A stretch of 64,000 nucleotides of DNA, from positions 744,001-808,000 of the forward strand of contig NW_025408686.1 of assembly GCF_020360975.1 (NCBI RefSeq), given 5' to 3'. The DNA is from Hirsutella rhossiliensis (taxonomy: Eukaryota; Ascomycota; Sordariomycetes; Hypocreales; Ophiocordycipitaceae). Of this stretch, positions 4,222-64,000 are shown in pieces (the first letter of the stretch is position 1; every line of letters begins with the position of its first letter). The position numbers and the translations under genes are program-made. The notes beneath the pieces are model-generated. The model was given only the letters and a program-made list of their open reading frames with translations. It did not search any database and was not told the DNA's origin.

Positions 4222-4646
4222 TTATAGGGGTGCGATCTTACTTAATAAAATAGGTAGGGCAGAGAGATTTAATTCTTATAAGAGTAGTAATAAAGCTAGG
4301 GGAGTAATTATTATATTTTCTTAATTATCCTTCTTTCCTCTATTTAACGCCCCCTTTTATACCTATCTAGTATCTTAATTAATAAAGAAGATCCTACTTA
4401 AAGAAGCTACTAATATCCTTTTAACTACTAATCTTTTTACTAGTTTTTTCCCCTCCTTTTTAGCCGTTACTAGTATATCCGTCTTATCTCTCGCTACTTA
4501 TACTTCCCTTTATACTCCTACCCTCCTTTCTATACCTCTTTTTAGCTCCTTATTCCTTCTTCTATACTAAGTATTTTTAGCTTCCTTAGTCCTTTATATT
4601 AAGGGATATCTCCGAGAACTACGAAATTAGGCTACGCTTCGCGATA
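4222..4646 (-). repeat. Inverted, heavily RIP-mutated copy of the copia LTR (copy B)
   Basis: The reverse complement aligns along its whole length with copy A at 2387-2781. At the LTR start copy A reads TGTCGCGAAGCGTGGCCTGA and copy B reads TATCGCGAAGCGTAGCCTAA: every difference is a transition in a CpA/TpG context. Sequence to the right of 4646 does not match the 3' end of the pol region, so this is a solo LTR or the edge of another inverted element. The left end, near 4222, is approximate. Confidence 0.75.
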
Positions 4647-7600: not shown

Positions 7601-7888
7601 AGTTTTAGTTATATATCGCGTATATACGCTTATATAAGTATATATTAGTTTATACTCTATAACGTTAATAGTTATTATATTAGCGGTTATTACTAAGTAA
7701 CTATTATAGTATCGCCTATATATTAGCCGTATAACTATAATATAAAGAGTATATATATATATCTCTTACTTCTTATATTTTCTTTTCTTCTTTAACTCTT
7801 TTACTTATAATTACTATAGAGTTTTATACCTTTTTTTATTAATCCCTTATACCTTTTTTTATTACTTTTTATCGATAATTTATTAATA
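4647..7888. other. AT-rich RIP-mutated DNA with weak residual coding frames
   Basis: Stops are dense in all frames and almost all TAA or TAG. Around 5280-5660 one forward frame still reads like sparse protein sequence if the RIP-type stops are ignored, with an IDF-S-IARFI string upstream near 5110 that is faintly like a retroviral-type protease site. This is too weak to name. 5740-5775 has less mutated bases (TTCGTCCGGAATTTGTAACG) that may be an element boundary. From 7300 to 7880 only AT-rich sequence and pyrimidine runs are seen. Confidence 0.45.
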
Positions 7889-24722: not shown

Positions 24723-26784
24723 CTAGGAGATCGCCTTGATGTCCCAAGGCTTGATGACCCAAGCCAGTGCCTGTGACCTCGCAACCTCCTTAGCCAAGAA
24801 TTTTCTTCCCTTCGCAATTGTCAGGTATCTCTGAGCATTTTTGAGCCATTCCTGCAGTTCGTCGAAGCTAGTGGTAGCAGTGAACGAGCGATCGCCATGT
24901 ATCTTCAACACTCGTGGAAACCGTAGAGTATAGTACCGTGCATTTGCGGGCTTGTCGAAGCCAGATCCCACGAGTTCTACTATAAATGGATGCTGAAATA
25001 ACGCCTTTGGGCGTAGTCCACGGTCGGGTCCAAGACCACGTCAAAATTTGGCGTGGACTCAATGAAGGGTATTTGTGTGAAATATCCATGTCGGTTGAGA
25101 TATTGCATATGGTCTTTCGGGATGCCATGTTTGTCGATGATGTCGATGATGCGAAGTCTTGGCTTAGAATTATAACGGCAGACCTCATCTTTATTTTCCA
25201 TGCATCCGATAAAAAACGACGTCCACCAGAGCTTGCCAATTCCAATCTCTTGTTCGTCCTCCGCGCTATGGTTGCCACCGACAATAGTGAAGTCGGCAGA
25301 GTCACCGAGGCCTGGAATGTAGTCTTTCTTGAGTTTGATGGATGACTTGTCGCAATCGGAGGTGAAGTAAGGGTCGTTGCAACCTTTCAGCACCAGTCCC
25401 TCCCACCGTTGTGTAATGGCTCGTGCGAATAGTTCAGTGAGCCGCTCAGCAGCATTGGCTGAGGAGAATGCAACCACTTCGCGGAACCCGACCTCGGCAA
25501 GACCAGGGATCCGGCGAACCAGAGACCGAAGTAGTCGTCGCCGCTTAGCATGGCTTTTTCTAGCGCAGACCGTGTCGTCCAGCAACAGAAGATCGTAGAA
25601 CATAATCATGAGATGTTCATTCATATTGAATGGGGGGTCTTGGGCCGCTCCAAGGAGCCGTCCTGATCGTCTGACGTGTTTACGAATTTTGTGGAAGGGC
25701 TCGATTACCCTACTGTCGTCGTTCCATACCAGCAGCTCGCCCTCCAGTATGCATTGTTTCTTGATCCTGCAGCCTGCCGTGCCAAGGTCGAGGCTTTCTC
25801 GTAACGCGCGATGAAGGCCAATGCGGTCGATGGTAGAGTCCCTCCCACTCTTGGAGAATATTTTGATGCAGGCTCTGGTTTGCTTAAGTCAACATGAAGT
25901 TGACAGTATTCTCCATCGTATTTCCGCTCCACGCTCATTAGTCTTGAGCCAGCCAAGTGGCAGCAATGCTTGATGCTCCTTGCTTTCGCATAAGCTGGCC
26001 GTTCAATCATGACTCCAACCTGCGGCTGTAGGACTTTCCTCAACTCTTCCCAGGGATTTACCACGGCCTGTAGGGGTGTATTCCGGATCTCAAGTCCCCC
26101 TAGGATACTTACGGCAACTTGGATTGAATTCTGAAAACGGAGGAGATTCCACAAAAACGGATGAAATCTGCCCATCGCCAGTCTTTCTGGGACAGAGGCC
26201 GGATTGTAGTTTTTGGATAGCATGCGAACCAGCCATTTGGCCTCAAAGCTGTTTAATCTTCGGAACAAACTGATGAGCAGATCGTCCGAGCTGCTGCAGG
26301 GTTGACGGTATTTCCGCTCAGTTTCTTCTCGCAGATCAGCGGACGAGAAAGGTGAGAAGGCTGCAATCCGATCGAGCACATCGTCAAGTTCTTGCAGAGT
26401 CACTTTCGGACCCATCCTTGGTTCGCAGTCCGTTATAGCCATAACGCGCTCAACACAAGTTGCGAAGTCCGGGCCGTTCCTGGTTTGCCATATCTGTAGC
26501 TCCTTCATTCGGGACGATCCAAGACATTGTGCTTGTTGGACAATCCTTTCGAGCTGAATTTTTGATAAGCCGAAAACTCGGTCCGGCCTGCGTTCGGGAA
26601 AGAGGCATGACAAGAATGCCACGGCTTCTGACCCTAGACGTGGGATGGCTGTATCATGTTTGTCGAACCAGCCAACAAGACTGCGCACATCGAAGTCCTG
26701 GGTCTTCTGAATACTGAAAGACCTCGTGTGATTTCTTTCGAGTTCACTGAGGAGTTCACATAAGAGATGCAACGGAAATGGCAT
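24723..26784 (-). pseudogene. ATP-dependent DNA ligase (LIG4-like, no BRCT), two frameshifts
   Basis: The start is ATG at 26784 (MPFPLHLLCELLSELE), matching the N-terminal helical domain of eukaryotic ligases. Nucleotidyltransferase motif I, with the adenylated Lys, is ERKYDGEYCQLH near 25920. Further motifs follow: ILEGELLVW (25750), MIMFYDLLLLDD (25600), RWEGLVLKG (25400), SSIKLKKDYIPG (25340). The OB-fold end is GSGFDKPANARYYTLRFPRVLKI (24960-24895), finishing WVIKPWDIKAIS at 24723. This ligase would seal DNA nicks or breaks in the nucleus; resemblance is closest to the end-joining ligase IV family, but BRCT repeats are absent. One-base shifts at about 25871-25877 and 25008-25016 break an otherwise well-kept frame of roughly 680 codons. 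No introns are needed. It may be intact in reality. Confidence 0.82.
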
Positions 26785-27511
26785 ATTGGCTGAATATTTG
26801 TAGTCCAGGGCTGTTCAACCAGAGGATGGCGAATGTATGACGGAATGAGTCTTAGCACAAGCTCTGGGATGAGCGGAGGGAGTCGTAATCCAACTTATAA
26901 ACGATGTCCTCCCTGCTCCATTTCCACTGAATCTATGGCCCTCGAGGCGAACTCAGACTTGTAGCATGCGGGTGGGTTGCTCCGTCTAATGACGACGTCG
27001 TGAATCTCGTCGCTGCGGCTGACAGCCCTTGCGACATAAGTACCCATTCTGCCTTGCCAAGTTATTTGTCGTGACTGGATTCGGCACCTCTAGTTCGAAG
27101 GTTAGGTGGGACTACTGACCTCGCAACGCAATAGCCATGAACGGCAAAACATGTTCACGGCTGGACGCTCGAATGCGACCTCCTTGGCATCCTGTGCCAA
27201 CCCAAAACGGCTTCACGGCAACCGGCGCATGTATATTGTCACTTGATCTCTGCCCCAGCGCTATTTCCAGAAAGTAGTATCCCACTCGTATCTGCAACAA
27301 ATGCTGCGTCTCGTTGCAAACCGTACAGTACGACTAGGCTCTAGCAGACTATTGTGATCCGTTGTACTCATACTTGACAAACCCGCCAATCCCTACACGC
27401 CTGATAGGGGTTGCAGAGCATCTCAAACATCTCGTCGTAACCGATGAGGAGATTCATTTCCTCAGCATATCCTGCCCTCGAAGGCTTCGGTCTCGTCATT
27501 CCATTGCAGCG
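26785..27511. other. Ligase promoter region, no gene recognised
   Basis: Normal composition upstream of the ligase. No domain-bearing frame on either strand. Confidence 0.4.
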
Positions 27512-44785: not shown

Positions 44786-47700
44786 TCACGTCAGCCGTTC
44801 CCGCGGCGTCCGACGACGTCGTGCCTCACCAAGCCTTCCCTCTCTTGCCTCGCGGCGTCCAAGTCGTCGCCGAGCCAGCACAGCGCCTCCCGAACGCTTC
44901 TGTCGCTTAGTTCCTCCAGTCTCGCCTGTGCGGCGGTCATCTCCCCGGGGACCCGGTTTCCCACCAGGTCCCTCTCGCACCTTCGACACGAGCATGATGC
45001 CGTCCAGCGTCGGGCACCGCGATAGCTGCACGTACAGGCTGTACGGGTCGCACTGCGACGGGACGGCGCGTCCGCCGACGTTGGTCGTCCTCGTCCCCCG
45101 CAGCTCGAGCGCCACGCGCTCCAGCGTCCCCCCCTGCACCTTGTAATCCGTGCACGCGAAGGCGGCGGCGCACGGCAGGCCCTTGCGGCTGACGTCGTTC
45201 TGCTGCCACGGTCGCTTCCGCTGACGCTGGACCCTGACGCTCATGGGCGTCAGCAGGATGGTGCCGGCCGGCATCCCGACGAAGTGGAAGTCCTTGGTCG
45301 TCTCCGACCCCAGTATGATCGCCGCCGGCGGCCCGAAGTGGATCGTCATGTCGGCCGAGATCTGATGCCCCGGTACGCCTTGTCGATGATGACCTCCGCC
45401 GCCGTGTAGCCGGCGCCGTTCACCAGCTTCAGCCCTGGTGAGTGTTGTGGTTCACGACGACCGGCATCCCCGGCACGAACATGAAGACGGCCGGCACCGG
45501 GATCGCGCTGTCGTCGCCCTGGTTCAGCATCGTGATGGCCTCTTCCTCGGTCGGCAGGCCGTCCTTCCACTTGTGTTCGGAGAGGAAGATGCGCACCGTC
45601 GACCGCTGCTGCATCTGGAACGCCAGGCTCGCCTCCATGTTGAGGTTCCACCGGTTCCTGTTGAGCGGCGTCACCACCGTGATGCCCGTTTCCCACGGGA
45701 TCCGCCTGCCTTCCCGGTGGCACCTCGAGTTGAGGAGGTCCAGGTCCGCGTGGTCCTGCACGCCCCGTCGGATCCGCCGCAGGAGCCCCTGCAGCTCCGG
45801 GTCGCCGGCGGCGCGCATCTGCTCGTCCAGCATGACGACGGTCGTGAACCGCCTCCACAGCGCGTGCGCCCTGTCGTGCTGGTGGTGCCGCTCGGCCCTG
45901 AACGAGCTGTCCTCGTCCCACGAGACGGCGGCGCTCGGCAGCAGGATCGACCGCTCCTGGACCGGGCGGAACTGGTGGAAGTCCCCGCAGAAGAGGACGA
46001 TGGGGATGCCGCCGAAGTCCCGCCGCGATCCCCGGAGCTGGCAGAGCCGCTCGTTGACGGCGTGCAGCGTCCGCGCGCCGAGCATGCTCACCTCGTCGAT
46101 GACGAGCACGTCCTTGTCCTGCCAGTCCATCCGGGACTGGCCGTTGACGAACCGCTCCGCCTGCTTCGGCAGCCGCACGCCGTCGACGTTCCTCGCCGTG
46201 TTCTCGCCCGGCCCTTGGTCCTTGGTGAAGCCGCAGGCGGAGTGGATGGTGATGCCGTTGACCCGTGCGGCGGCGGTCCCCGACGTCGCCGTGACCAGCA
46301 GGCGACTCGAGATACCCTTGGCGGCGAAGAGGCCCACGAGTGCTTCGATGACGCGCGACTTGCCGGTGCCGCCCTCGCCGCCGACGAACTGGCAGAGCTG
46401 GCTGACGTCGCCTCCGTCTCTTTCCCGCATCGAGTCCAGGTGGCGGCATATTATCGAGAAGGCGATCGCCTGTTTCTTGTTCAGCGTCAACCGTGTTCTT
46501 AAGCCTTTCCCAGCCTCGAGGAAGGAGGTCGACGGGCCGAGGCGGATTTCCATGCCGGCCTGCGCGTTACCTGCCGTCTCCTCAGCTGCCGCTCCCGTCA
46601 TCTGCACGTCTTCCTCCCCGAAGCCGGTCAGCACGCTCCGCGCCGCTGCGCCGCGATCGGTGCCGTGGGCCGGGGCCATGCTTTGTATGCCCTGGATCAT
46701 CTTCACCCTCTCCCTGGAGGCGCAAGTCTGCTGCGACTTGATGGCCCTGACCTGATCCTGCGGCGGCACGGCGGCCCCGGAGAACACCTGGCCGGGCATG
46801 TTGATGTACCTCCCGCCCCGTTCGGTCACCATGGTGGCCTGGAGCTCGGCCGTCGAGGCTAGTGCGGATTGTTGGAAGCGGCAGAGCTGCTGCATCATTC
46901 CCGAAAGCTCCTGCGATCCCGCCGTGATCTGGTTCGCCCCGGCCGCGCTTCGCACGACGTCAATCAGTCGCGTCGCCATTCCGACGTCGTCCGACTGGTA
47001 CGCCGATGCCGCCTCGTGATCCGCTTGGCCCTGGCCCTGCCCCTCCCCCCCCTCCCCGTCGCCGGACGAGGCTGCCCATTGCTTGGCGTCTCGCTTGGCG
47101 TCCTCGGCGGAACGCCTGAGCAATTGAACGTTGTCGACGAGGCACGAGGTTCTCGGCGGAAGCTGCTCCCGCGCGCGCCTCCATATGTCGTTGATGTCGC
47201 CTCGCTCCTCGCTAAGAAAGGCCTCCCACGGGGTGAACAACGCAAGATGCTGCACGGCTGACCTATAACGAACAGAACGGTTTAGTTGCGACGCGTTGCG
47301 ATCCCCTTTTCAACCGCCCGTTTGCCGTGCTTACCTGCGATGGCATGATCCCTCGTCGTCCTCTTCAAAATCCTTGCTTAGGTACCCGTCAAGGCAGACG
47401 ACGGCATGCTTCCCCGGCCGCCTCAATACCTGCACCCAGTCTTTACCCGCCACCCAGCCGCTCTCGAACGCCACCTCTCCCCAGGCACCGGAGCACCCGT
47501 CCTTGCCGACGCGTTGGAGCCTGACGAGCGAAACGTAGTCGTATAGGCATAAGCCTCGTAGGACGTTTCCGCGATGATGGTACGCCTCGGCGAAGCTGAT
47601 CCGTTCGCCCGCTTCTTCCACGACGACCGACTCATCTACGGACACGTCAGCGACCGCGGTGCCGCTCTCCTGTCGAAGGTGTCGCCACCGTCTCGAGACG

Positions 47701-49307: not shown

Positions 49308-50043
49308 CTATTAATGTGTGAGTTTTTATTGGCTGTAATCCCTGTAAGGTACACGCTTGCAGCCTTCGTACACTCAATGGGATAGGGGCACGATTTTGAG
49401 GCTTAGTCAGAAAGCGCGCCCCGGGCGCCAGTGTAAGTTATCAGCCGCCGACGCAGTGGGGTACGTTAATCATCCTAGGCAGGCTTGATATGCGACTATC
49501 CATCCACCAAAAAAGCGGGGACGGTTTGAACTACCACCTCACCCTCGTCTCGTCTGCATTTTTCGCCTCCTCCACGACGATGCCAGGCCAGCCAGCATCC
49601 TCTCCGGCCCTGTTCTCTAGTGTGTCGTGAACAGCGGGCGCATCGAGGTGCAAAGACTGCGGGAACAGGCCCTGGCTAAAGAGGATAAAGGACGGGACAC
49701 AGCTCTTGCAAGGCGCTCTCCCCGCCCGCCGCCCGTCACCCAGCACCGGCCCATCTCGCCATTCACTTCGTGCGAGCCCGTGCTCTTGCTCACAGGCAGC
49801 AAACGGCCTGCCCTGCGCCTGCGCCTGCCTCGCACACATTCCTCTTCACGGCCTCTGCCGCCCCGCGCAAACGGCGACTGCGCTGCTTGCTTGCTCACCG
49901 CCTCGGCGTGCACGTATATATAAATAACATGTAAGCCCCCCGCTGCCGTGCTCCGAGCAAGACCCTGGCCTGTCGCGACATCCCTTGCCCGGTCCGCGTT
50001 AATTTTTTTTGACACGTCCCTGGAGATAGACTTGGCTGTTGCG
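49308..50043. other. Upstream region of the Argonaute relic
   Basis: Normal composition; no gene recognised on the plus strand. It includes a TATA-like stretch, a CT-rich 5' leader and a T8 run at 50003-50010 just before the Argonaute start. Confidence 0.4.
49915..49926 (+). promoter_or_regulatory. TATA-like element upstream of Argonaute
   Basis: TATATATAAATA lies 118 bp upstream of the ATG at 50044, in otherwise GC-rich DNA. It could place the transcription start of the relic gene. It is the best core-promoter candidate, with no experimental support. Confidence 0.4.
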
Positions 50044-50344
50044 ATGTCAGACCGCGGCGGAGACCGGGGCGGCGGCGGCTCCTCTGCCCGCGGCCGCGGC
50101 GGCTTCTCGGACCGGAGCGGACGCGGTGGCTATCGCGGCGGACGCGGTGGCTATCGCGGCGGCCGTGGCGACGGCGGTGACCGGGGCGGTCGCGGAGGCG
50201 GCTTCCGCGGTGGTCGTGGGGGCCGGCCGCGCGACACGACGATCGAGCTGGCGTATAGGTGTGTATATTGCCCCCGTCTGCCGTGCTCGACACCCGGCCC
50301 GCTGACAAGGCCCGCAGCGTCAATGGATCTTTCCCGCAGCCCGA
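50044..50344 (+). pseudogene. Argonaute, 5' part (exon 1, intron, first 5 nt of exon 2)
   Basis: ATG 50044 starts MSDRGGDRGGGGSSARGRGG, an RGG-rich tail as in fungal Argonautes, with a duplicated GRGGYRGGRGGY unit. Exon 1 ends at 50262. The intron is 50263-50339 (GTATAT, branch GCTGAC, TTTCCCGCAG). Exon 2 starts CCCGA at 50340 and is cut at once by the LTR of a chromovirus; the frame resumes at 56434 or 56439. With the element removed the exons join in phase as LAYRC-PDAAVTALEDRL. Argonaute would bind small RNAs for RNA silencing. The intron phase fits only this donor. Confidence 0.75.
50340..50344. repeat. Target-site duplication, left copy (CCCGA)
   Basis: CCCGA directly precedes the LTR start TGTTACGG. 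The same five bases follow the right LTR at 56434-56438. A 5-bp duplication is typical of Ty3/gypsy integration. Confidence 0.93.
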
Positions 50345-50566
50345 TGTTACGGCCAGGCACATACGAGCCTTGACGGCTATAAAGATGTATTGGCACTATG
50401 AACAAAGACTCAAAGCTAAGGAGCAAGAAAGGAAGACTAGACTACACGACCGAGCGGGCCCTTATATAGACACGAGGTCGCGCGTGGGCACGTGATGCTG
50501 CTTGGGCACGTGACACTGGTGAGGTTCTGCGCTGGCGGCTCTACGCCGGCGCCCAGGGTCGTGACA
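50345..50566 (-). repeat. Left LTR (3' LTR of the minus-strand element)
   Basis: 222 bp, plus strand TGTTACGG...GTGACA (element sense TGTCACGAC...CGTAACA). It holds TATATAG near 50463, a repeated GGGCACGTGA motif (50488, 50503; CACGTG E-box type) and the polypurine tract GACGGGGGGTAG just outside at 50567-50578 on the minus strand. Confidence 0.93.
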
Positions 50567-50606
50567 CTACCCCCCGTCTAAGGCCTTGATATGCGTATCA
50601 AGGTAG

Positions 50607-53600
50607 TCAGTCGTGGCGGCGGGTTCTTGGTTTCACGGCTTTCTCTGCTGTGTCGTCATCGTCTCGTTCCTCGCAGCCCTCCTCCGCTGCAGCACATTCG
50701 ATCCAGTATTGCAGGTTGACGGGTGGGCCTGCTGCGTCCGGATGTTCATCGTGGAAAATCTTCAATGCCATTGGTGCGTTACGGAAATTCCTAGCCGGGT
50801 ACCAGGTCTCATCAGGGTCACATCCCTTCCATAAGACCTGGTATTCCAGTCGTCGACTCCTACCGGTTACTCGAGACTGCTGGACTTGATCAACCTCCCA
50901 CTCGGGTTCTCCGTTGATCTCCTCGGGTGGCGGAGGTGACTGGATCTGCTGGGGCAAGGGGTTATCGGCTGCTTTTCGAAGACGGTCGGCGTGGAATAGG
51001 TTCTTCATTTTGTACGACTCGGGCAGCTGCAGTACGTAGCTATGACCGCGTTCTTCCAGGATTACGAACGGACCTGACCATTGGTTATCTAGCCGAGTAG
51101 TCGGAGCGTTCGTGGCGAAGCCTTTCCTGCTGAGAAAAACTCGGTCACCGATGGCAAAGTCGGTTGGTCGTCGTTTCCTATTAGCCTGTTCCTTCTGACG
51201 TTCTTGAGCGGCGGTGGCAGCATTCCTGGCGTCTTCCTGGGTTTCCTGGGCGGTCTGCACAAGTTCCCTAGCTCTGGCGGCGGGTCCGGTGGCAGCGGTC
51301 TTGTCAGTCGGGGGCAGTGACAGGGGGGTTCCGGATATCTCGGCCTAGGGCTACTTTTAACGGTGCCATGTCGATGGAAGAGTGCCAAGACGAGTTATGG
51401 GCGAAGTCGAGGGCGGGCAGCAGGGAACTCCAGTTATCTTGATGCTTCGTCACGTAGAATCGTAGCTTTTGATCTAGGTATTGATTTGTAACTTCTACAC
51501 CCCCCTTGGGTCTGAGGGTGTAGGGAGCTTCCATGACGATGCTTCGTTCCCGTGAGCCGGTTAATCTCTGCGAGGAAGGCAGAAATAAACTGTCCAGCGT
51601 TGTCAGAAATCCATACGAGGGGCATACCGAAGAAACGATAGAGGTAGCGGAAGTAGCGGCTAGCTAAGACTTCTGCCGTATCGTTTTTCTTTCCTGGGAG
51701 CGTGGCGATAATCCGGCTTAGCTTGCAGACGAAGGTCCAAACATAGTCATATCCGTAACGGTCTTTCGGCATATCCTTCCCGTCACATTCGACGTGCTCC
51801 CAAACAGAGGTCGGTACGGGCAGTGGATGGAGCAGTCCAGGGGTCTTGTCTCGAGGGGTTTTGTTGCGGCGGCAGTCGTGGCAGTTCCGAATATAACGAC
51901 GGATATCCTCCTTCATCCTTGGCCAGTAGAAGTCTCGTTGGAGCAGCTTGATCACCTTGTTCTGTCCGGCGTGAGCGAAGATCTGGGGTTCGTGGGCTTC
52001 GCGAATGAGCGCGGTCTGAAGAAACGTCTGCTTGTCTGAGGTCTGGGCTGGTACGACCAGGTGTGTTCCATGGGTACCGAGGTCTTGGAGGAGGTTCTCC
52101 TGGCGGATCAACGAAACGAGTTCGGCTCCCTTCGGGACCGAGTTCGGGTCTAGTTCTGGGCGGTCTTGATCGGGCGTCTGCTGTATCCTCGGTCTTCTGG
52201 GGTCTGTAGGGCACTCGTGGCCCTCAGAACTAATGGTCTAGTAGGCTTAGGTTCGGGACTAAAGTTCTGAGGGCAGGTTGCCGGCGGCCGTAGGGTCTAG
52301 AGAGTCGGTCGCGAAGCCTAGCCTTTCCGGAGGATCAGGGTCACCGTGCGTTCCTCGGCTTCCCGGCCTTTACGGTAGGGAGCTCCGCTGTCTTCCTGGA
52401 GAGGGCATCGGCGACTACGTTCAGTCGACCGGGGCGGTAGAGGAAACGGATGTCGAACTGGGCGAGAAAGTCGGACCATCTGATCTGTCGTACCGAGAGC
52501 AGGCGCTTCGTAGAGAAATGGACTAAGGCTTCGTGATCGGTGATCACATCGAACTTCTGGCCTAAGAGCTCTGGGTAGAAGTGCTCTAGACTCTGTACGA
52601 CGGCGAGGAGCTCTCGATCTTGGATTGGGTAGGCTCGCTCGGCCGGGGTCATGGTCTTAGAGAAGAATCCAACGGGCTTCCAGGTCTGATCAGGCTGTTC
52701 CTGCCATAGAACACCAGCTGTGGCATTCCGGGAGGCATCGGTCTCCAGTCGGGTCGGCAGTTCTGGTCTAAAGAAGGCGAGGACCGGGGCTTCGATAGCC
52801 AGGCGCTTGAGTTGATCAAATGCTTCGCGTTGCTCCGGGCCCATCACAAAGGCAACATCCTTCTTAAGCAACCGGTTCAAGGGTTCTGCCACTCCGGAGG
52901 CGTGGTAGCAGAAAACACGGATGAAGTTGCATAGGCCAACGAATGATCGGATCGCGGTGCGGTCTCGGAGGTCTTCAAACTTCCAGTCTTGTATCGATCG
53001 AACTTTCCGAGGGTCGACACTAAGGCCCACACCGGCTTCAAGCAGAACGCCGAGGTAGTCAACCTTGGTCACGTTAAATCTAGACTTCTTGATGTCTCCC
53101 TGAGGTTGGCCTGATGGAGTCGCCAGATCACTTCTTGACAGTCTTTCCAGTGGTCTTCTTCTTTATCCGAGTAGATCAGGACGTCATCTGCGTAGGCGCT
53201 GGCGCACCGGTCGAGGAGATCGTGAGCTGCGCGTTGATAAACTGCTGGAACCAGGCGGGACCTACCTTCAGACCGAACGGGAGGACTTTCCAGCGGAAAG
53301 TTCCGAAACGGGTGCGAAAGGCGGTCAAATACTCGGAGTCAGGGTCCATGCGGAGACGGTGGAAGGCCTGGATCACATCGATCTTCGTGAAGCGTTGAGC
53401 TTCACGGCAACCGAAAGCAGTACCTTCGAGGGACGGAGCGGGCGTGATGCGACTTTTAAGATGATCGTTCATCCAACGGTAGTCGATGCAGAAGCGGCGG
53501 GCGGTCGTGTTCGGTTTCGGAGCGAAGAGGACGGATGCGGCGTGCGGACTCGGATCGGGCTCGATGAAGTCTATCTCCCGGAGGTGATCGACAGTCTCTT

Positions 53601-54744
53601 TCTCTAGAGGCAGATACTTAACGGGCGTGCGGTACGATGGGGGTCCTGTCGGCGAAAGAGGCTTCTCAAGCTCTAGGACTACATCGTGACCGGGTCGGCT
53701 CGAAGGTAGGGTGTGGGCCTCTTTCTTCGAGAAGAATCCCTCTAGATGGGTGAGCTGGGGCGGTAGACGACTACGGACACAAGCAACATGCTCAGGGTCT
53801 TCTCCCTGAGGGAACGGAATGCTTTGTCCCTGGTAGGTCTTCTGATCCGGGGAGACTTTAGCAACGGTTCGAGCACTAGGGACGGTCTGGTCAAGGCCGG
53901 AGCTTGGCTCGAGCTGGACTGGATCCCGGGGCATCAACGGTTCGAGTTCGTTCCACTGTTCGAATCTCTCGTGAGACTCTACTTGGCAGACCAGGGCGTT
54001 AATCAGGGCTTGATCTTCGGAGGCTTGGACCGAGGCGACGGAGACGAAGTCGGTAGCAGGGGCGGTCGTGAGCTGAAAACGGACAGACTTCTTGGCAGAC
54101 GGAGACTTGGACTGAAACGACGGAGACGGAGTCGGTAACGGGTCGGGACAGAGGCCGGAGGAGCTTGATCAGAGCGGCGCCAGTTCTTGTGGAGGATCCG
54201 GTAGCGTTTCTCCTCTTTCTCGAGCAGGCGGTTCCGCCTCTCAGCGTCGGCCTGGATCTTAGGGTCGATCCGACCCGAGAGCGGGGCTTGACGAGAGAGC
54301 TGGATCGTCGGGGAGAACTTGGCGAGGCAGGAAGATCATCTGGCCAGATGATCTGTCGGGCGGCGCAGTCAAGCAGGAGGCGCTTCTCCGCATCCAGAAA
54401 AGACCGATAAAGATATCATGGCCACACTCAGCTATATCAAATGTCTCGTTTGCGAACGAACGGCCATCGATGACGAAAGTGGCGACCAGCTGTTTCTGGA
54501 TATAGCCGGCTGGCTTTCCACGGAAGTCTTGGAGGGGAATCCGACTCGGGAGCTCCTTAATCTGGGCTCCGAGTCTTTGGGCGGCGGACTGGGCGAAGGT
54601 TGGGCTAACCAGCAAACGGGTTTCGGCTCCGGTATCACAGAGGGAGCGGGCAGGTAAGCTCACACCATCCACTTGGACTTGACTTGGCAGAGTGAATGAC
54701 TTGCTAGACCTACTCGCTATCTGTGACACCTTAGGGACCATCAA
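50607..54744 (-). pseudogene. Chromovirus pol: protease, RT, RNase H, integrase, chromodomain
   Basis: On the minus strand the order is: aspartic protease with LCDTGAETRLLVSP (about 54635); RT starting near 53750 with RFCIDYRWMNDHL, FTKIDVIQAFHRLRM and the catalytic YADDVLIYSD (about 53190); RNase H with RLETDASRNATAGVLW and DRELLAVVQSLEHF (52740-52580), ending VVADALSRK; integrase with the zinc site ending CHDCRRNK (51870), ECDGKDM, WISDNAGQF and VEVTNQYLDQKL; and a chromodomain EWEVDQVQQSRVTG then YQVLWKGCDPDETWYPARNF (about 50900-50780). Chromodomains steer integration to marked chromatin. Shifts lie near 53219-53225 and at the C3 run 53098-53100, among others. The stop is at 50607. Confidence 0.88.
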
Positions 54745-54799
54745 GGAGTCTTGTGATGGTCCTATTCGTTTCCCGAATCTTGATCAGAGTCGTTGGCAG

Positions 54800-55774
54800 G
54801 GACAGGGACGGAGGCGACACGGGAGACAGCATGGGTGCGGTCGGGACAGTCGCGAGAGGTGCCCTGTTTTTCCACAAATAAAGCAGGTGCCATTATCCCA
54901 ATGGACCCTTTTCTCATCGTCGGTCAAGGCTCTGCCAGCATCACGCGAGGTGATAGGGTCGAGCCGGTCTTGTTCGGAGTCTTGGCGGTAGTCGGAGCAG
55001 TCTTAGTCGGCGCGCGGCGAGATCGGTCGGAAGAGCGGGAGTCCTGTGTCTGCCTCATACTCCTCTTCTGGCAGTGGACAGCGTCCTTAATGAACCCACA
55101 GAAAACCTCGTAGGTCACGGACTCGTCACGGGTCTTGGTCAAGAGGCTGTTATCTAGGTTGGCCGGGATGTGCTGCCACAAGGTATGCTTCATCTGGTCC
55201 TCGGGCACACGACCGGTCGCAGTTAAGTAGTCAAATTCCGCAAGGAAGTCCACAATGTCGGTCTTCCCATTCACGGTAAACTGGAGGCGTTGCAGGCGGT
55301 CAAGAGCCTCGGAAAGCTCATTCGGATTGCCATAGGCGGACTCGAGGGCTTGGATCATCTCTGCCACTCCAGAGAAGGGTCGAGTGTCAGAGGAGAAGCG
55401 GGTTTCAAGTGCTCGGCGGGCTTTTCCTCGAGCAGGTTATACAGACAGACCATCCGGCTGTTCTCAGTCCGGAAGGTTCGCACGTCTTCGTCAAATTTGT
55501 TCTTTATGCTCAGGATGAAGGAATGGAACTCGTCCTTCTTTCCTGAGAACGTCGCGGAGGCCTTGATGCGCGATTTGGCGGCGTCGCTGTACTCGGGGTT
55601 CTTGCCCTCTGGGAAGGGGGCAAAAACAGGCCAGGCAGCTTTGCCTGTTGGTCGGAAGGCCGGGCCATTTGGGCCGGCAAAAGCAGTCGAGGGCTCCCGG
55701 TGCTGTCGATTTGATTCAACAGACGGAGAGCGTTCATTTAGACGGGCCGTTAAGGCCGCAATCTGTTCCCTCAT
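54800..55774 (-). pseudogene. Chromovirus gag with zinc knuckle, frameshifted
   Basis: The frame from about 55774 (MREQIAALTARLNERSPSVE) contains AAKSRIKASATFSGKKDEFH and MVCLYNLLEEKPAEHLKP. A one-base shift at 55400-55402 leads to AEMIQALESAYGNPNELSEA and the retrotransposon-gag core LQRLQFTVNGKTDIVDFLAEF. The nucleocapsid zinc knuckle CFICGKTGHLSR...C (about 54885-54850) is split by another shift near 54849-54857. The true start may be farther right. Gag forms the particle that packages element RNA. Confidence 0.82.
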
Positions 55775-56189
55775 CTCGCGGATGAGAGCGTCTTGGGGCT
55801 CAGGGCAGCCATGGCTACTATTTCGGATTCAGTGGCTTGGCCAGCAAGCCGGGTGGAACGGCGAGGCTGATCAGAGGGCAGGGCTTCCTCGGATATCATA
55901 GTCGCGAGGTGATAGGTGTCGGAAATGATACCACGCGGAATCACGGTCAGATGCCTGCACGAGCAGGGACGGTCGGAGGTCAGACGGGACGAATCCCTTG
56001 GTCGGAACGGTTGGTCGGACGGCTACACACACGCGTAGTCTTGGTCGGAACGGACGTGATCTCAGCCTTGAGGATCACTTGGTCGGTGGTCGGAGTCTTG
56101 GTCGGAACGGTCAGAACGGATGCGCTGGATTTACGTCAGGCGCGTGTGACGTGAAAGCTCGGTGCCTATTTGCTTAATCGCTGGCAAGC

Positions 56190-56211
56190 GATCTTATTGA
56201 GCTTTGAGTAG
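56190..56211 (-). other. Probable primer-binding region next to the 5' LTR
   Basis: Minus-strand sequence CTACTCAAAGCTCAATAAGA directly follows the end of the 5' LTR, where minus-strand DNA synthesis is primed. I cannot match it to a given tRNA by eye. Confidence 0.35.
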
Positions 56212-56433
56212 TGTTACGGCCAGGCACATACGAGCCTTGACGGCTATAAAGATGTATTGGCACTATGAACAAAGACTCAAAGCTAAGGAGCAAGAAAGGA
56301 AGACTAGACTACACGACCGAGCGGGCCCTTATATAGACACGAGGTCGCGCGTGGGCACGTGATGCTGCTTGGGCACGTGACACTGGTGAGGTTCTGCGCT
56401 GGCGGCTCTACGCCGGCGCCCAGGGTCGTGACA
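56212..56433 (-). repeat. Right LTR (5' LTR of the minus-strand element)
   Basis: 222 bp, base-for-base the same as 50345-50566 as far as I can compare by eye, including the paired GGGCACGTGA motifs. It would carry the element promoter, reading leftwards. Confidence 0.93.
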
Positions 56434-56438
56434 CCCGA
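56434..56438. repeat. Target-site duplication, right copy (CCCGA)
   Basis: CCCGA follows the last base of the right LTR (GTGACA) and equals 50340-50344. Confidence 0.93.
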
Positions 56439-57266
56439 CGCTGCCGTGACGGCCCTCGAGGACCGCCTCATCAAGACGCAGAGATCCTCGGCCGCCGGCC
56501 TCGCGGCGCAGATGGCCAAGACCAACATCCAGGCGCCGCCCCTCCAGGCCCGGTCCACTGACGTGTTTCCCCCTGAGGCCGGCCTTTGGCACAAGCGGCC
56601 AGCCCGTCACGCTGTGGTCCAACTACTTCAACGTCACCTTCAAACCCATGGTGCTGTACAAGTACACCTTTGAGTTTGTCCAGGTCGGCTCCGAGACGTC
56701 GTCGGGCGAGCCGTCCAAGTCGTCCAAGGCCGCCAGCCGCGAGGTCAAGGGCCGCAAGCTCTACTTTGCCGTCCGCGAGCTGCTCGCCACCCTCAAGGCC
56801 GCCGACAAGACGCTCGTGCTCGCCACCGAGTACAAGAGCCAGCTCGTCTCGCTCCAGAAGCTCAAGCTGGCCGAGAACCCGGTGCGGTTCCGGCTGGCCG
56901 TCGAGACCAGCGGCGACAAGTGGGACGTCATCGAGGCCACCATCCACGGCCCGACAGAGGCGCCCCTCGACGCCCTGCTCAAGTACGTCGGCACCATGAG
57001 CGAGGGCCCCGTCGACGGCCTCTTCCCCCAAGTACCCGGACGTCGTCGACGCCCTCAACGTCATTCTCGGCCACGGCCCGCGCTCCAAGCTGCACGACAT
57101 CTCGGCCGTCGGCAGCGCCCGCTTCTTCCCCTTTGGCAAAGACGAGGCCGCCACCAACCTGTTCCAGGACTTTCACCAGCTCATCGCCGCCCGGGGTTTC
57201 TTCCAGTCGGCCCGCCTAGGCACCGGCCGGCTTCTGCTCAACGCAAACGTCAGCCACGGCGTCTTC
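56434..57266 (+). pseudogene. Argonaute, continuation (N domain and linker 1), truncated before PAZ
   Basis: It starts with the right target-site copy CCCGA and reads PDAAVTALEDRLIKTQRSSA, then after a shift near 56578-56588 FGTSGQPVTLWSNYFNVTF and MVLYKYTFEFVQVG, the Argonaute N-terminal domain. ELLATLKAADKTLVLATEYK and LLKYVGTMSEGPVDGLFP follow. A shift in the C5 run 57025-57029 leads to YPDVVDALNVILGHGPRSKL and the linker-1 hallmark GTGRLLLNANVSHGVF. Similarity stops at 57266. The frame runs on for about 67 unrelated codons to a stop at 57465-57467. PAZ and PIWI, with the slicer residues, are absent, so the gene was already cut short or rearranged here. Confidence 0.82.
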
Positions 57267-57872
57267 CCAAAGTTGATGCCGACGTGGGCAGCCCTCCCCT
57301 TGTCGCGAGGCTCCCTCCGCTGCAAGCTTCGCCACCCCCGACACTTCCCAGGCATGCACATGTACATTGTCATACATTGGGTCAACGGCGAGGGAAGAGA
57401 AATTAACGGACAAGTCCTGCCTCGCGTTCCCTCCCTGAACCCCGTCGCAGGGGAGGCTGCGGACTAGTCTGCACGATTCGGTTCGCCCCCCTGCGCCTAC
57501 AGAGAATTTGGCTACTCGTAATTTTGCAGCATTAGCGGATGTGATCGGCGCATAGATGCAGAAGCTGAACCTGGTCAAAGACGCATAAACCATCTCAGGG
57601 GTGGCCGGCAGGCGTCAGCTACAACAACGGACCACAGCCCGGAAGTGGAGGAAGGCGCATGATCCCACCCGACGATATGTGCAATGAGATGGCCAAAGCT
57701 GCGCCTTGGGGATTCTCGGGATGATTCGCTGGAGCTCTCGTCCCGGCCAGGCAGCCCGTCTCATACTCGTTTAGATAGTGAAGGAGGTAGGCACCACCCC
57801 CTTTTGTCCCAGTTTCCATATCTCCCATTTTCTTGCAACTCTCCGAAAGCCAACGAAGCCCTCCTTCCCGCC
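57267..57872. other. Region after the Argonaute break, no gene recognised
   Basis: It starts with an open stretch lacking PAZ similarity and then normal intergenic sequence. A breakpoint at about 57266 separates Argonaute from unrelated DNA. Confidence 0.4.
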
Positions 57873-58217
57873 ATGTCGACTGACACTACCTCGACTATGC
57901 AGGGGAATATGAGTTCCACTGAATCGATTGCCTGTGGACAAACTGGTCATCTTCGTGCTCTCGATATGCTTCTTTGTCCTACCTCGCCCACATCAGAATT
58001 CTCGGATACCGAAAGCCAATTCAACAGCACAAACTGCCGTGACAGATATCCACAAGACGAGATTGAAGTGTCACCTACACAAAATATACAGCCCTCGTTT
58101 GCACCTAGCGATCTTGAAGAGAGTGATTACTCTTCATTTTGGGGCGATGACAAGGAGAATCGTCCTCCTACTGGGCTCGTTTTCGAGTCACTGTATCCGA
58201 TACTTGCCATCGAGTAG
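57873..58217 (+). CDS. Small acidic hypothetical protein, possibly first exon
   Basis: ATG 57873 opens MSTDTTSTMQGNMSSTESIA to a stop at 58217, 114 codons. It is Ser/Thr-rich and acidic (SDLEESDYSSFWGDDKENRP). A GTATCC at about 58193 could be a donor leading to the frame at 58262-58507, which contains CKPVRITISISQSSPSDSS. No known domain is recognised; a small regulatory protein is only a guess. Confidence 0.33.
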   Translation: MSTDTTSTMQGNMSSTESIACGQTGHLRALDMLLCPTSPTSEFSDTESQFNSTNCRDRYPQDEIEVSPTQNIQPSFAPSDLEESDYSSFWGDDKENRPPTGLVFESLYPILAIE

Positions 58218-59600
58218 AGGCCAGCGGTACAGTCGAGAACGGACAAGGCAAACAGGTTGAGATGGAACTTGACCTCCCTCTCTGCAAGCCTGTTAGAATT
58301 ACTATCAGCATTTCTCAGTCTTCTCCTTCGGACTCGTCACGACACACCAGGAAATGCGAGCGGAGAGACCATGGCGGGATATACGGGGGTGTGAGTACAG
58401 AATGTCGAGCGCCTGAAAGAATATGGCAAAGCCATGGGCAAGGGCATAAGCGACAGCGGATTCACAAAATCCGGAGGAGCAAGCAACCAGCCGTGGAGGA
58501 GTGTTGAATTGTTATATCTTCACCAGTCCTTATAATGGTAGTAGTCCTTAGATATCTCCTCTAAGAAACGCTGGTTCCACAAGCTGGCATTTGCATCCTC
58601 GCTCGCCTTCATGCGAGACTTGTCGGGGAATTGCCCTCGGGTCACCGAATCATGCGAGGCGTATCGATGATCCAAAACGGCGTCGGTTGTGACCGCCCCC
58701 TGCCGCCTTTCAGCACGAGTCCAAGTCTAAGTGAGTCGGTCAACAGCGTCAACTCGGTCGTGAGCACACTGCGGCGAGTCGTTTGTGGCGATAGAACTGC
58801 CCGGGGCTTCCCGCAGTCGCATGTGACTTGAGCATGTTGAAATTGAATCCAGGCTCCTCGCCAAATCCCTTGTCTGAGGTTGACTGTTGCTTTTTGGCAC
58901 TCTCCACCACAAGTGTGATGAGTGATTGCCGCTGCTTTCCCCTAGGTTTGGGTGTCGTGCGCTGGAATAGCTGCCGCTGCATGCTCGGCTCGCTGCGGTC
59001 ACTGCCATCTGAACTGTACCTAGTCGTCTGCGTTGAGCTCTTCGGCCCCAGAGTTTGGAATCCGATTGAAGCTTCGGTTGTAGACGTAAGTAGAGCATAT
59101 ATAGACGTCTGGACACTCCCTACAGCGTGACGGGTAGGGCGGGACGAGCCGGTAATCCTTAACTAGCGAGCCCTTCTGCGAGTCCGAGGAAAACCTTCTT
59201 GTCATTTAGACGACTGGTGGAAATTTTCGTGAACTAACGTAGGGAGTTCGAGTGAAGAGAGTGTGACTAAACTGAAGATCATACATGCAAGATGATGTAC
59301 GCGGAAGGCATGGCTTCCTTTAATGCTTTGGAGGGCACCTTTGCGTCGCGCTTGCAGCTATGAAAGAATTATTTGGAGCGTTTGCATCGACCTGAACGCG
59401 GCATCTGCGGGTGACCTAATTTGGAACGTTTAAATTGAAGGAAGTAGCCGTAGGCAGACCGAGGACAGTGATGTAAAATTACCGTCACTCTGAATCAATG
59501 CCCTCAGAATGATACCAGTGCTCCGCCGACCGTTCAGTACCGGGTTCTGTCACCACAGACAGCTGCATCTCTCTATCTACCCGTTTCCTCTGGTGCTCTC
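58218..59600. other. Intergenic region left of the second gypsy element
   Basis: Normal composition. Open frames on both strands are short and domain-less. No repeat is obvious. Confidence 0.4.
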
Positions 59601-59838
59601 TGTCACGGGCTGTGCCCGGCTGGTGGACCCGGTTGTACCGGGTCCGGTGGGTCGTGCTCCGGTGGCAACACCGGCCCCGCTCCGCGGACCCAGAAGCTGC
59701 GAGAACATTCCGAGAAGGGTAATATAAGCTCGCACTCGAGGCTACGCCTCGAGTTCAGCTTCTTTCCTCCTTAGCTCTAGATAGACAACACCTAGGCACC
59801 TGCTTGTTGAATAAACTCCGGGCCAGCCTTTCACATAT
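59601..59838 (+). repeat. Candidate 5' LTR of the second gypsy element
   Basis: It starts TGTCACGGGCTGTGCCCGG and ends near CTTTCACA, 45 bp before gag. It contains several hairpins (GACCCGG/CCGGGTC at about 59627-59645; CTCGAGGC/GCCTCGAG with a 3-nt loop at 59735-59753) and a TATAAG box at 59723. The matching 3' LTR lies beyond the window, so the ends are unconfirmed. Confidence 0.45.
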
Positions 59839-59883
59839 CTAGAGCTCCTTCTAAATACCGCAAGCTGCAGACTGCTCGTCAGG

Positions 59884-60987
59884 ATGGACCAGCAGAGTGA
59901 GCCCAAGTCTCCAGCAGCAATGGATTGACCAACGCATTCAAGAAGCGGTCAATGCGACTCTCAGCCCTCTACAGGACCAACTTTCCTTGCTGATGGAGCA
60001 ACTCGGGCGAGCGCAGCCGCAGAGCGCCGACTTGCAATCGCCGCCAGTGGCACGAGGATTGGGCGAGAGCACGCCTGGCTTGGGCACGCCCTCCCAAAAC
60101 CTGCGGTACTGGAATGCGGAAACCGTTGCCCAACCCACCCAAGTATGACGGCTCACGGAAGAGCTACTCCGCCTGGGCCAGGCAGATGCGAGACAAGCTG
60201 GACCTTGATGCACACTACTACAGTGGAAATCGCGAACTTTGGTACCTCATCAACTCATGTTTGGACGAGCGACCACAGCAAGTGGTCGCTACCTTTTACG
60301 CCGCGGGAGGCCCTGGGGTAGCTACGACCCCAAGAGTTCATGCGATACCTCGACCGAACCTACCAGGACAGCAACATCCAATCCCGCGCTGCTGCCACGC
60401 TGAGAACTATGCGGCAGCGCGAAGACCAACCTCTCGCGTCCTTCCTTCCCCGATTCGAACAGGCATTAGCTGAAGCCGGGGGAGCAGACTGGCCGGACAG
60501 TGCAAAGATCGTATTTCTAGAGAACGCAATAAATGCACGCCTCCAAGAGAGTTTGGTCACAGCCGTCCTACCCGACGACTACCAGGGATGGCTTGCGAGA
60601 GTTCAGGAAATTGCGGGCAGATTGGAGAGACTGAAACCCGGTAGGCAGCCGACGTCGACTGAGCGGACGCCTCAACAGCTACCAAGGCAACGACCCAAGG
60701 AGGAACCGGAGGACCCCGACGGAGATGTTAAGATGACGGACATCAACCGTATTGGCCACGAGTCGAAGGGTCGTCGACATGTCGATAAGAAGCCGAAGGA
60801 TGAGCGCCGCTGCTATCGCTGTGGTCGGACGGATCATCTTATCGTGGACTGCCCAGCCCAGGTGGTCTTTCCTGGCGAAGGGAAGCAACAGCGACCTAAA
60901 GCTGCGCGCATGAAGAAGCCCGATGCCGCAGATGATTCGGAATCAACCGCAGCATCCAGTGAGGACGAGTCGGCGGGAAAAGACTAG
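59884..60987 (+). pseudogene. Ty3/gypsy gag with zinc knuckle, frameshifted
   Basis: ATG 59884 (MDQQSE) moves after a shift near 59900 to QQQWIDQRIQEAVNATLSPL, and after another near 60110 to LPNPPKYDGSRKSYSAWARQ, the usual gag core start. A shift near 60320 leads to EFMRYLDRTYQDSNIQSRAA and a long clean frame ending at TAG 60987. The zinc knuckle is CYRCGRTDHLIVDC (about 60810-60851). Downstream pol follows at once. Gag packages element RNA; this copy has three shifts. Confidence 0.85.
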
Positions 60988-63900
60988 CCCCGGGCGAAAG
61001 CGGGCGCCGGGGCCTGCAAAGGCAGACATCCGGGACTGGGAAGCGTTCAAGCCACGAATGAATAGTCGGACTGTATTAGTCAACGCGCGGGTAAACCGAG
61101 GCTATCGAATACGCGCCCTTGTCGACTGTGGATGTGACTGCTATGCCGTGATCGACGAAGCCCTTGTTCGGAAGCTGCGGATACCCTTCGTCGACTCGAA
61201 ACCACGAGAAATTGGGGGATTCTCAGAGTCAGCGAAGAGTGTCATATCCCCAGGGTCGTGGCTGTTGTGGTCGAGACAGCTGGATTTGACGAACGTGTCT
61301 TTGCATACGTGATCCCAAGCCTGGGCCAGGACATGTTCCTCGGCCGGCCTTGGATGGAGAGAAATCACGTCGTGTACGATGCTGCCAAGCAGCGAATGTA
61401 CCATGGGAGGGCAGGTGTGACGATACGCCTCATTGGGCAGGAAGAGCCCGCCAAGATACGCGCGATTCGAAGCGCAAGACTCGTGTCGGCAGCCGTATTC
61501 ACGGCGGAGTGTCGACGCGCAAAGAGACGCAAGAAGTGCAACGCGATCTCGATTCATGCAATCAGTTTGTCGGATATAGAGAGGGCGCTTCAGCCGAAGC
61601 CGCCAGTCGATCCGAGCGAGAAGGTCCCGGCAGAAGTGCTGAAAGAATTCCGCGACCTATTCTCACCAGAAGAGGCAATGAAGCTGCCGCCACATCGACC
61701 GGGTGTGGATCATGAAGTCAACCTGCAGCCTGACAAGAACGGCAACGAGCCACCCCTTCCGTGGGGCCCACTCTACAACATGTCACGAGAAGAGCTGTTG
61801 GTCTTGCGAAAGACCCTGAAAGACCTGCTGGACAGAGGATTCATCCGAGCGAGTAGCTCAGCGGCTGCCGCGCCGGTGCTGTTCGTGCGGAAGCCGAATG
61901 GAGGGCTGCGATTTTGTTGCGACTACCGAGCGCTGAATGCAATCACCAAGCGCGACCGATACCCACTGCCCTTCATCGCGGAGACCCTGCAGAATCTGGC
62001 CAAGGCTAAGTGGTTCACCAAGTTGGACGTGGTGGCCGCTTTCCATAAGATCCGCATGGCTCCGGGACATGAGGAAAGAATGCATTTCGCACGAGGTTTG
62101 GGCTCTACAAGTGGCTCGTGTGCCCTTTCGGCCTGAGCGGCGCCCCGGCATCATTCCAACGATACATGAACAGTGTATTGCGCGAATGGCTGGACGACTT
62201 TGTCACAGCGTACCTGGATGATGTACTGATCTACTCGAGCGGTTCGAAGGCGGATCATGAGGCTAAGGTGCGACGAGTTCTCCAAGCACTCGCCGACGCT
62301 GGGCTGCACCTAGACCCAGCGAAGTGCGAGTTTTCGGTACAAGAGGTCAAATACCTTGGGTTCATCGTCAACGCAGGGAAAGGAATCGCCTGCGACCCCG
62401 AAAAGCAGCGCGCCATCCGCGAATGGGAGGCCCCGACCACGGTGAAGGGTGTCAGAAGCTTTCTGGGCTTCGCCAACTATTACCGGATCTTCATCCCCGA
62501 CTATGCCAAGATCACGCAGTCTCTGGATGCCCTGCTTAAGAAAGGAACTGCCTTTCATTGGGGACGAGCGGAGAACGAGGCGTTTCAGGAGCTGAAGCGA
62601 CGATTTTGCGAGTCACCGGTGCTCAAGCAGTGGGACCCGAGCCTCCCGACCTTTTTGGAGACGGATTGCTCAGGCTACGCATTGGGAGGCGTCCTGTCGC
62701 AGGAAGGCCCAGATGGACGTCGACACGCATGCGCCTTCTTCTCGAAGCGACTTTCGCCAGCGGAGTACAACTATCCCATTCACGACAAGGAGATGCTTGC
62801 CATCATGAGATGTCTCGACAACTGGAACGCCGAACTTAGGAGCTGCGGCCCATTTACAATCCTTACCGATCACCGCAACCTGGAGTATTTCATGACACGC
62901 CAGAAGCTCACGGAACGGCAGAGCCGTTGGGCAGCCGAATTGTCCCAGTTCGACTTCAAGCTCGAGTATCGACCGGGAAGCGAGGCTGTCGTGCCTGATG
63001 CGTTGTCCCGCCGTGAACAAGACAAGCCACAGGGCATTGACGACGAGCGGGAACAAGGAAGAATGATACAGTTGATACCGGATAGTGCCATTCCATCATC
63101 GACAAGAGCATGTATCAACGCGATGAGTTCTGACTGTTCAGAGGCATCCACCCTGCCGAAGATGAAGGTCTTCGAGGTAGCGGACCTGCAGCAACTCTGG
63201 GACGAAACGGTGGCGAAGGACTCGATATTCCGGGCAGCCTATAAGGCAGTCCGCGATCGCGAGCGTGCCTTCCCGCCCTCGCTGGGCCTGAAGATCCAGA
63301 TTTCAGAATGTGCGATCGACGCAGGCAAAAGGCTGACATTCAGAGACCGTATTTGGGTGCCGGGTGGATCCGGAGGAGGGTAACCAGGAGGAAGCTGAGA
63401 AAGACCAGTTGAGAACCCGCATTGTGCAGCAGTCGCATGACTCTGTTGCGACCGGTCATCCCGGCAGGGAAGGTACGCTGGCTATTGTGGCTCGGCGATT
63501 CTACTGGCCTGGGCAGTCCCAGCTGGTTCGCCGGTACGTAGCCAATTGCGACACCTGCGGCAGAGCACACATCTGGCGCCAGTCGAAAGGGATTTCTCAA
63601 GCCTCTGCCGATTCCAGATCGACCCCGAAGCCATTTGTCCATGGACTTCATCACAGATCTGCCGCCTACTGGACCGAGCAAGGCAAGGTACCTGTGGGTG
63701 ATTGTGGACAGACTGACAAAGGCTGTGACCCTCGAGGTGATGGACAACATGGAAGCTGAGCAGTGTGCAAACCGTTTTCTCCAGTGTCATTACCGATTTC
63801 ACGGAATGCCACGGTCCATCGTCAGCGACCGCGGGAGCAACTGGCTAAGTAGGTTCTGGAAGAGGTTCTGCCGTCTTGCAGGTGTCACGCAGAAATTGAG

Positions 63901-64000
63901 CACGGCCTATCATCCTCAGACGGACGGAGGGCCAGAGAGAATGAACCAGGAGATCGAGGCCTACCTGAGAGCCTACGTGTCGTACGTGCAGGACGACTGG
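60988..64000 (+). pseudogene. Ty3/gypsy pol (protease, RT, RNase H, integrase), runs off the window
   Basis: The protease region reads ALVDCGCDCYAVIDEAL (about 61107), with DCG where the family has DS/TG. RT has RFCCDYRALNAITKRDRYPL and FTKLDVVAAFHKIRM. A shift near 62080-62100 precedes PFGLSGAPASFQRYMNSVL and the catalytic YLDDVLIYSS (about 62212). RNase H includes FLETDCSGYALGGVLS and DKEMLAIMRCLDNW, ending VVPDALSRRE (62990). After a shift near 63360 the integrase zinc site HPGREGTLAIVARRFYWPG with CDTCGR follows, then MDFITDLPP, IVSDRGSNWLS and HPQTDGGPERMNQEI. The element is cut by the window edge at 64000. No chromodomain can be judged. Confidence 0.88.

Follow-up and report, generated by a model that had tools for sequence, protein, structure and literature searches.

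We analysed a window of 64,000 nucleotides on contig C20 of the nematode-parasitic fungus Hirsutella rhossiliensis (C20:744001-808000; the genome comprises 81.8 Mb in 40 contigs), in which the 5' part of an Argonaute gene is split by a long terminal repeat (LTR) retrotransposon and fused downstream to a dispersed repeat, here called X. An initial annotation of this DNA had described an Argonaute gene broken by a recent chromovirus insertion. That an Argonaute frame is split by a recent Ty3/gypsy insertion was upheld, with ArgoN and ArgoL1 lying to the right of the element and reverse transcriptase, RNase H and integrase lying within it. Argonaute loci are designated by their contigs (C20, C22, C6a, etc.), C20 being the window copy. 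Its 5' flank (49462..50043, plus strand) is common to the paralogues and starts at the left edge of the duplicated block, and the sequence 49500-50344 matches eight places in the genome, every one of them an Argonaute locus. Exon 1 (50044..50258, plus strand) encodes an RGG-rich N-terminus, with the ATG at 50044 and a GTGTGT donor at 50259 whose position is conserved in the eight aligned copies. A GT...AG intron of 59 bp follows (50259..50317, plus strand). Its acceptor at 50316-50317 is present in all eight aligned copies, whereas the acceptor chosen in the initial annotation (50338-50339) has no AG in three of them (C6b, C13 and C2). Exon 2 therefore begins at 50318 and the insertion lies 27 bases into it, rather than five as first proposed; a start of exon 2 at the CCCGA is ruled out by the paralogue alignment. 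With this acceptor the exon joint reads LAYSVNGSFPQPDAAV. The first 27 bases of exon 2 (50318..50344, plus strand) end with the left target-site duplication CCCGA (50340-50344), and the right CCCGA (56434-56438) opens the remainder of the truncated exon (56434..57267, plus strand). The Argonaute frame runs on across the insertion, as previously noted (PDAAVTALEDRL).

A Pfam domain scan identified ArgoN (5.8e-8) and ArgoL1 (2.3e-12) in the frames to the right of the element, while no PAZ was found in the C20 frames scanned there and the genome search gave no PIWI match at C20. Homology to the Argonaute paralogues stops at 57267. As assembled, two single bases absent from the C6b paralogue are present in the frame to the right of the element; they may be sequencing errors. 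The window copy is a QDE-2-type fragment with ArgoN and ArgoL1, not an Argonaute gene. PAZ, MID and PIWI are the domains that hold the ends of the guide and cut, and since the fragment is without all three, it could not act as an Argonaute.

The Argonaute sequence ends at TCTTCC (57262..57267), an overlap at which it is fused to X and which the copy on C22 shares; in the right-flank query, Argonaute homology ends at position 834 and repeat homology starts at 829 in many rows. The initial annotation had the gene cut at 57266 before PAZ and PIWI, of which the truncation stands, while its end is now placed at 57262-57267 and recognised as a fusion. The repeat at the fusion occurs in at least 32 other places (40 of 90 first-look candidates were scored), and its 3' part occupies 57268..59601 (plus strand) of the window, with 64-99% identity to other copies. 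In these other copies homologous sequence continues leftwards beyond the fusion point, which rules out a simple insertion of X with its left end at 57262; the junction is read as a fusion inside X. No Pfam domain was detected in the two X frames scanned (window:57663-58217 and L067:1015-1461). Part of X also lies approximately 300 bp downstream of the intact C6b Argonaute (L062:7135 onwards), oriented as it is in the fusions on C20 and C22, and 18 of the 44 reported matches of this piece begin at the same base (L062:7135). A second Ty3/gypsy element (59602..64000, plus strand), with a CCHC knuckle, RVT_1 and RNase H in frames at 60322-63383, is inserted in X and runs off the window; C22 reads through the equivalent of 59602 without it.

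For the inserted element, the two LTRs (50345..50566 and 56212..56433, both minus strand, the 3' and 5' LTR in the element's own orientation) are 222 bp each, show no mismatches and have TG...CA ends, and the CCCGA duplication is perfect on both sides, in agreement with the initial annotation. The element is 6,089 bp long and coding on the minus strand, with pol spread over several frames of the internal part (50567..56211) as assembled. Segments for reverse transcriptase (53176..54168; PF00078, 1.8e-12), its RNase H (52341..53162; PF17919, 1.1e-31 and PF17917, 3.8e-31) and integrase (51434..52237; H2C2 zinc-binding domain, 2.9e-19, and rve core, 2.9e-5, under its cut-off) were identified, all on the minus strand; for the RNase H segment, the best match among solved structures is Ty3 Gag-Pol (2.3e-26). 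As it combines paired TG...CA LTRs, a target-site duplication and the order reverse transcriptase-RNase H-integrase, the element is a Ty3/gypsy LTR retrotransposon. Its assignment as a chromovirus is only probable: the C-terminal part of the integrase (50607..51344, minus strand) contains a Tf2-1-like SH3 domain (3.1e-8) followed, as expected, by a weak match to the chromodomain PF00385 (6.4e-5, 23.2 bits against a cut-off of 25.1), and two chromodomain structures match this part at 0.0022 and 0.0031. A purine-rich stretch adjoins the 3' LTR, and 10 nt of the stretch after the 5' LTR are complementary to the LTR interior, a possible self-priming site.

The LTR search scored 40 of 159 first-look candidates and its counts are lower bounds. 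At least 43 matches to the LTR were found in the genome, 41 of these at 99-100% identity, which is far beyond chance. Among 30 LTR loci that were cut out, 24 form 12 pairs and six have no partner within this set. The LTRs are identical in all 12 pairs, and 11 pairs are flanked by exact 5-bp duplications, which makes this a young element family; in the twelfth pair the LTRs lie 8.4 kb from each other, the flanking duplications are unequal, and the pairing may be false or nested. Internal stretches (1.5 kb) of several copies differ from the window copy by 0-2 mismatches with 4-9 gap openings, and those of others by 3-21 mismatches. Dating by LTR divergence was set aside, 222 bp being too coarse.

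The relative age of the insertion is given by an empty site in the same genome. The flanks of the element match C22:710956-711794 and C22:711790-713553, and the five-base overlap between these matches is one CCCGA; C22 carries both flanks with this single CCCGA and no LTR, and its sequence reads straight through. The initial annotation had proposed looking for an empty-site allele, one that was not Argonaute counting against its reading, and the empty site found on C22 is Argonaute. It has the same truncation and fusion as the window copy at 57262-57267, and over 4,012 aligned bases the two copies are separated by 3 substitutions and 15 indel events. The loss of PAZ, MID and PIWI is therefore older than the insertion, and the Argonaute copy on C20 was dead before the element came, in line with the earlier suggestion of an extra, already damaged copy. 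At the left edge of the C22 Argonaute fragment there is a 3.25-kb MULE-type DNA transposon with 71-bp terminal inverted repeats (L059:2688-5935).

We consider it very likely, for the order of events as a whole, that ordinary insertions have nested at this locus in a spare, decaying Argonaute copy of the QDE-2 type. As judged by sequence identity (C20 has 4 differences from C6a in 1,620 sites and 26 from C15a in 1,618), a QDE-2 gene close to the present C6a would first have been duplicated at the DNA level, with its first intron and promoter region retained. That copy would then have been cut in exon 2 and fused to X at the 6-bp overlap, with loss of PAZ, MID and PIWI, and the dead Argonaute-X piece would have been placed at two sites, C20 and C22. 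Finally, the Ty3/gypsy element, probably a chromovirus, would have entered the C20 copy through normal integrase activity, with CCCGA duplicated in the process; the second Ty3/gypsy element would have entered the X part of C20 before or after this step. The empty site on C22 shows that the fusion and the doubling predate the insertion. How the initial duplication and the C20/C22 doubling were copied, and how Argonaute was joined to X, we infer rather than observe. In this order the insertion most likely had no effect on silencing.

Several points weigh against this order. Identical 222-bp LTRs have too little resolution for fine ordering, since zero differences would still allow a divergence above the 0.1-0.2% seen between the duplicated flanks; it is the empty site that carries the order. 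Two separate routes might have produced the C20 and C22 copies, or gene conversion might have made them alike. Furthermore, four of the six full-length paralogues are frame-broken as assembled, and a working paralogue is suggested by two open frames together with past selection.

For the Argonaute family, genome searches identified PIWI at eight loci and the 5' part of the window gene at eight loci, which combine to ten Argonaute loci. Nine of these are of the QDE-2 type, namely the 5' fragments C20 and C22, the full-length C6a, C15a, C6b, C13, C2 and C15b, and C1, for which only residues 730-1035 were found within the 3.8 kb examined (80-83% identity); fragments thus make up three of the nine (C20, C22 and C1). 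The tenth, C4, is a distant Argonaute (approximately 32% identity) with all six Pfam Argonaute domains. The initial annotation had suggested a search for intact paralogues, and among the six full-length QDE-2-type copies this yielded two that are open from start to stop, C6b (1,035 amino acids) and C15b (1,051 amino acids). C6a has one single-base deletion, C15a two and C13 several small ones, and C2 has 42 in-frame stops. The domain scan, which covered both large exons of C6b and exon 2 of C15b, placed ArgoN and ArgoL1 in exon 2 and ArgoL2 and PIWI in exon 3; for C15b, PIWI was identified by the genome search, and ArgoL2 and PAZ are among the domains listed for its database protein P0003. Both copies have an open frame through ArgoN, ArgoL1, ArgoL2 and PIWI. 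PAZ remained under threshold in the exon-2 frames scanned, so that in C6b it is below detection there. The best solved relative of the C-terminal exon of C6b is QDE-2 of Neurospora crassa (2yhb, 436.7 bits, 1.1e-129).

The Argonaute family was under selection for protein function, since the ratio of nonsynonymous to synonymous substitution rates between lineages not hit by repeat-induced point mutation (RIP) is 0.12-0.21. The C6a/C15a comparison gives 10 synonymous and 4 nonsynonymous changes, and because the latter are fewer than neutrality predicts (P ~0.0002, with an assumed nonsynonymous fraction of 0.76), at least this pair was probably functional after duplication. Between C6b and C13 the nonsynonymous deficit is not clear (8 against 11, P 0.06). 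Dicer_dimer matches two loci in the genome, which gives two Dicer loci beside ten Argonaute loci. In a 2014 survey, the figures given for Pezizomycotina genomes are 2.66 Argonaute genes (range 1-7) and 1.9 Dicers (range 0-3) per genome (PMC4290597). The ten loci of H. rhossiliensis, which comprise genes and fragments where the survey's figures count genes, are above its range of 1-7; without the three fragments and the RIP-killed C2, six loci are left (five of the QDE-2 type and C4), and this number is inside the range. A literature search found no description of Argonaute copy number in Hirsutella.

C2 is a RIP-mutated duplicate that was killed by this process, as C-to-T changes concentrate at CpA while reading-frame length was kept. 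Of its 301 derived substitutions, 277 are of the C-to-T type and 233 of these are at CpA; 67.5% of the scored CpA sites are changed, versus 1-5% of other CpN, and exons 2 and 3 have the same lengths as those of C6b. In C13, 10 of 17 derived changes are of the C-to-T type, counted by type without sequence context. RIP and a RID homologue are reported in a paper on the close relative Hirsutella minnesotensis (PMC4255773). Frameshifts were treated with more caution. Of the C20/C22 indel events, 10 of 15 are in homopolymers by the script's rule, and the indel-to-substitution ratio of this pair looks like assembly error, to which single-base frameshifts may be due. This reading does not extend to every frameshift, because substitutions outnumber indels in C6a/C15a (37 and 4) and in C6b/C13 (34 and 8). 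Frameshifts as proof of decay were set aside owing to the C20/C22 indel pattern and the gap openings among element copies, a comparison that did not extend to homopolymer context, and no conclusion is based on single-base frameshifts other than calling C6a, C15a and C13 broken as assembled. The truncation and the CpA-type stops are independent of this question. As C20 and C22 are duplicates that differ mainly by small indels, many of them in homopolymers, gene-broken calls in this assembly need a check; in the database protein P0004 (from C6a) the residues flanking such a shift are missing, as would result from a modelled intron.

The neighbourhoods of the copies bear on their origin. Downstream of C15b lies an alpha/beta-hydrolase-like gene (L065:6894-8129, matches at the cut-off). 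A stretch of 109-112 bp resembling this gene (81-83%) is retained at C6a and C15a and gives way to a Helitron-derived repeat, which occurs at 38 other places among the matches listed. These remnants suggest that the neighbourhood of C15b is the ancestral one. In the protein tree (midpoint root, several deeper forks unsettled), the two copies of H. minnesotensis form a pair (99/98) that excludes those of H. rhossiliensis, which suggests separate amplification in the two species. Sequence to the left of approximately 49461 recurs at C22:756622-756783, with no Argonaute in the 700 bases examined there; this piece was considered as a possible empty target of the C20 Argonaute block, but other repeat sequence follows it and no clean empty site emerged.

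That the copies spread as cargo of a mobile element such as a Helitron, and not by ordinary segmental duplication, is unlikely. The block common to C6a and C15a does run into the Helitron-derived repeat downstream, an equally oriented copy of this repeat lies upstream of C6a, and a PIF1-like helicase frame, probably part of a Helitron, lies approximately 2 kb upstream of the Argonaute block in the window (45429-47309, minus strand). However, Helitrons are everywhere in this genome (at least 150 Helitron_like_N matches scored from 609 candidates), so adjacency to one is cheap; moreover, no common Helitron termini were seen at the edges examined, and the right-hand edges of the copies differ between lineages.

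Two proposals that would give the dead fragment a role are much less probable. In the first, the Argonaute-X fragment would be a source of regulatory RNA, minus-strand read-through from the element tuning QDE-2 via small RNAs. The element codes, and so should be transcribed, leftwards toward Argonaute exon 1, so that such transcripts would run antisense to the paralogues' first exon, and with only 4 of 1,620 sites differing from C6a the small RNAs would match. Orientation and identity are the support for this idea, whereas C22 has the fragment without the element and nothing in the sequence requires a regulatory role; we regard it as very improbable. An equally remote prospect is that QDE-2 would have been amplified as an arms-race response to transposon load, with copies escaping RIP and one caught, and with dead fragments such as C20 feeding antisense small RNA onto the family. 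Least credible is that a transposon knocked out a working Argonaute and thereby aided its own release: there is indeed an insertion in an Argonaute coding exon, and the element belongs to a young family, but the empty-site copy on C22 was already truncated at the same place, which refutes a knock-out at C20 unless C22 is an assembly artefact, and two QDE-2-type paralogues with open frames remain. The earlier proposal that a transposon had hit the gene that would restrain it is accordingly rejected, as truncation preceded insertion and six full-length QDE-2-type paralogues remain, two of them open. The locus, read as nested insertions in a spare copy, is one scar in a large gene family that decays by truncation, insertion and RIP, not a knock-out of fungal defence. 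It illustrates how readily a sequence can be taken to show a transposon breaking a silencing gene, and how the question is settled by an empty site elsewhere in that genome.

The remainder of the window carries further traces of mobile elements. These include a DUF3435 match (10927-11955, 4e-23), a domain family that we take to be that of Starship-type tyrosine recombinases, and a Ty1/copia-type reverse transcriptase (16281-18125, minus strand; RVT_2, 9.7e-22). A DNA ligase N-terminal domain (25705-26814, minus strand; PF04675, 4.3e-12) is possibly a host or captured gene fragment. Positions 1-8000 are AT-rich: their two 4-kb bins have a GC content of 0.40 and 0.28 and extreme RIP indices, (CpA+TpG)/(ApC+GpT), of 0.32 and 0.06, while from 12 to 64 kb the window looks largely free of RIP; old RIP here lies next to young unmutated elements.

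Compared with known systems, the element comes closest to fungal chromoviruses such as those of the Tf1/sushi-like self-priming group, which it resembles in its TG...CA LTRs, 5-bp duplication, reverse transcriptase-RNase H-integrase order with a candidate chromodomain at the end, and possible self-priming site. It differs in that the chromodomain match is under the Pfam cut-off and that pol, as assembled, is divided among several frames. The excess of C-to-T changes at CpA and the 42 in-frame stops of C2 are as in RIP, whereas C6a, C15a, C20, C22 and C6b lack such an excess despite exceeding 1 kb and being nearly identical. Near-identical copies without RIP beside a heavily mutated one make this species suitable for studying how RNA silencing and RIP affect the silencing genes themselves. 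With QDE-2 of N. crassa, which acts in quelling, the paralogues share ArgoN and ArgoL1 in exon 2 and ArgoL2 and PIWI in exon 3; in contrast, H. rhossiliensis has nine QDE-2-type loci, and the copy in the window stops after ArgoL1.

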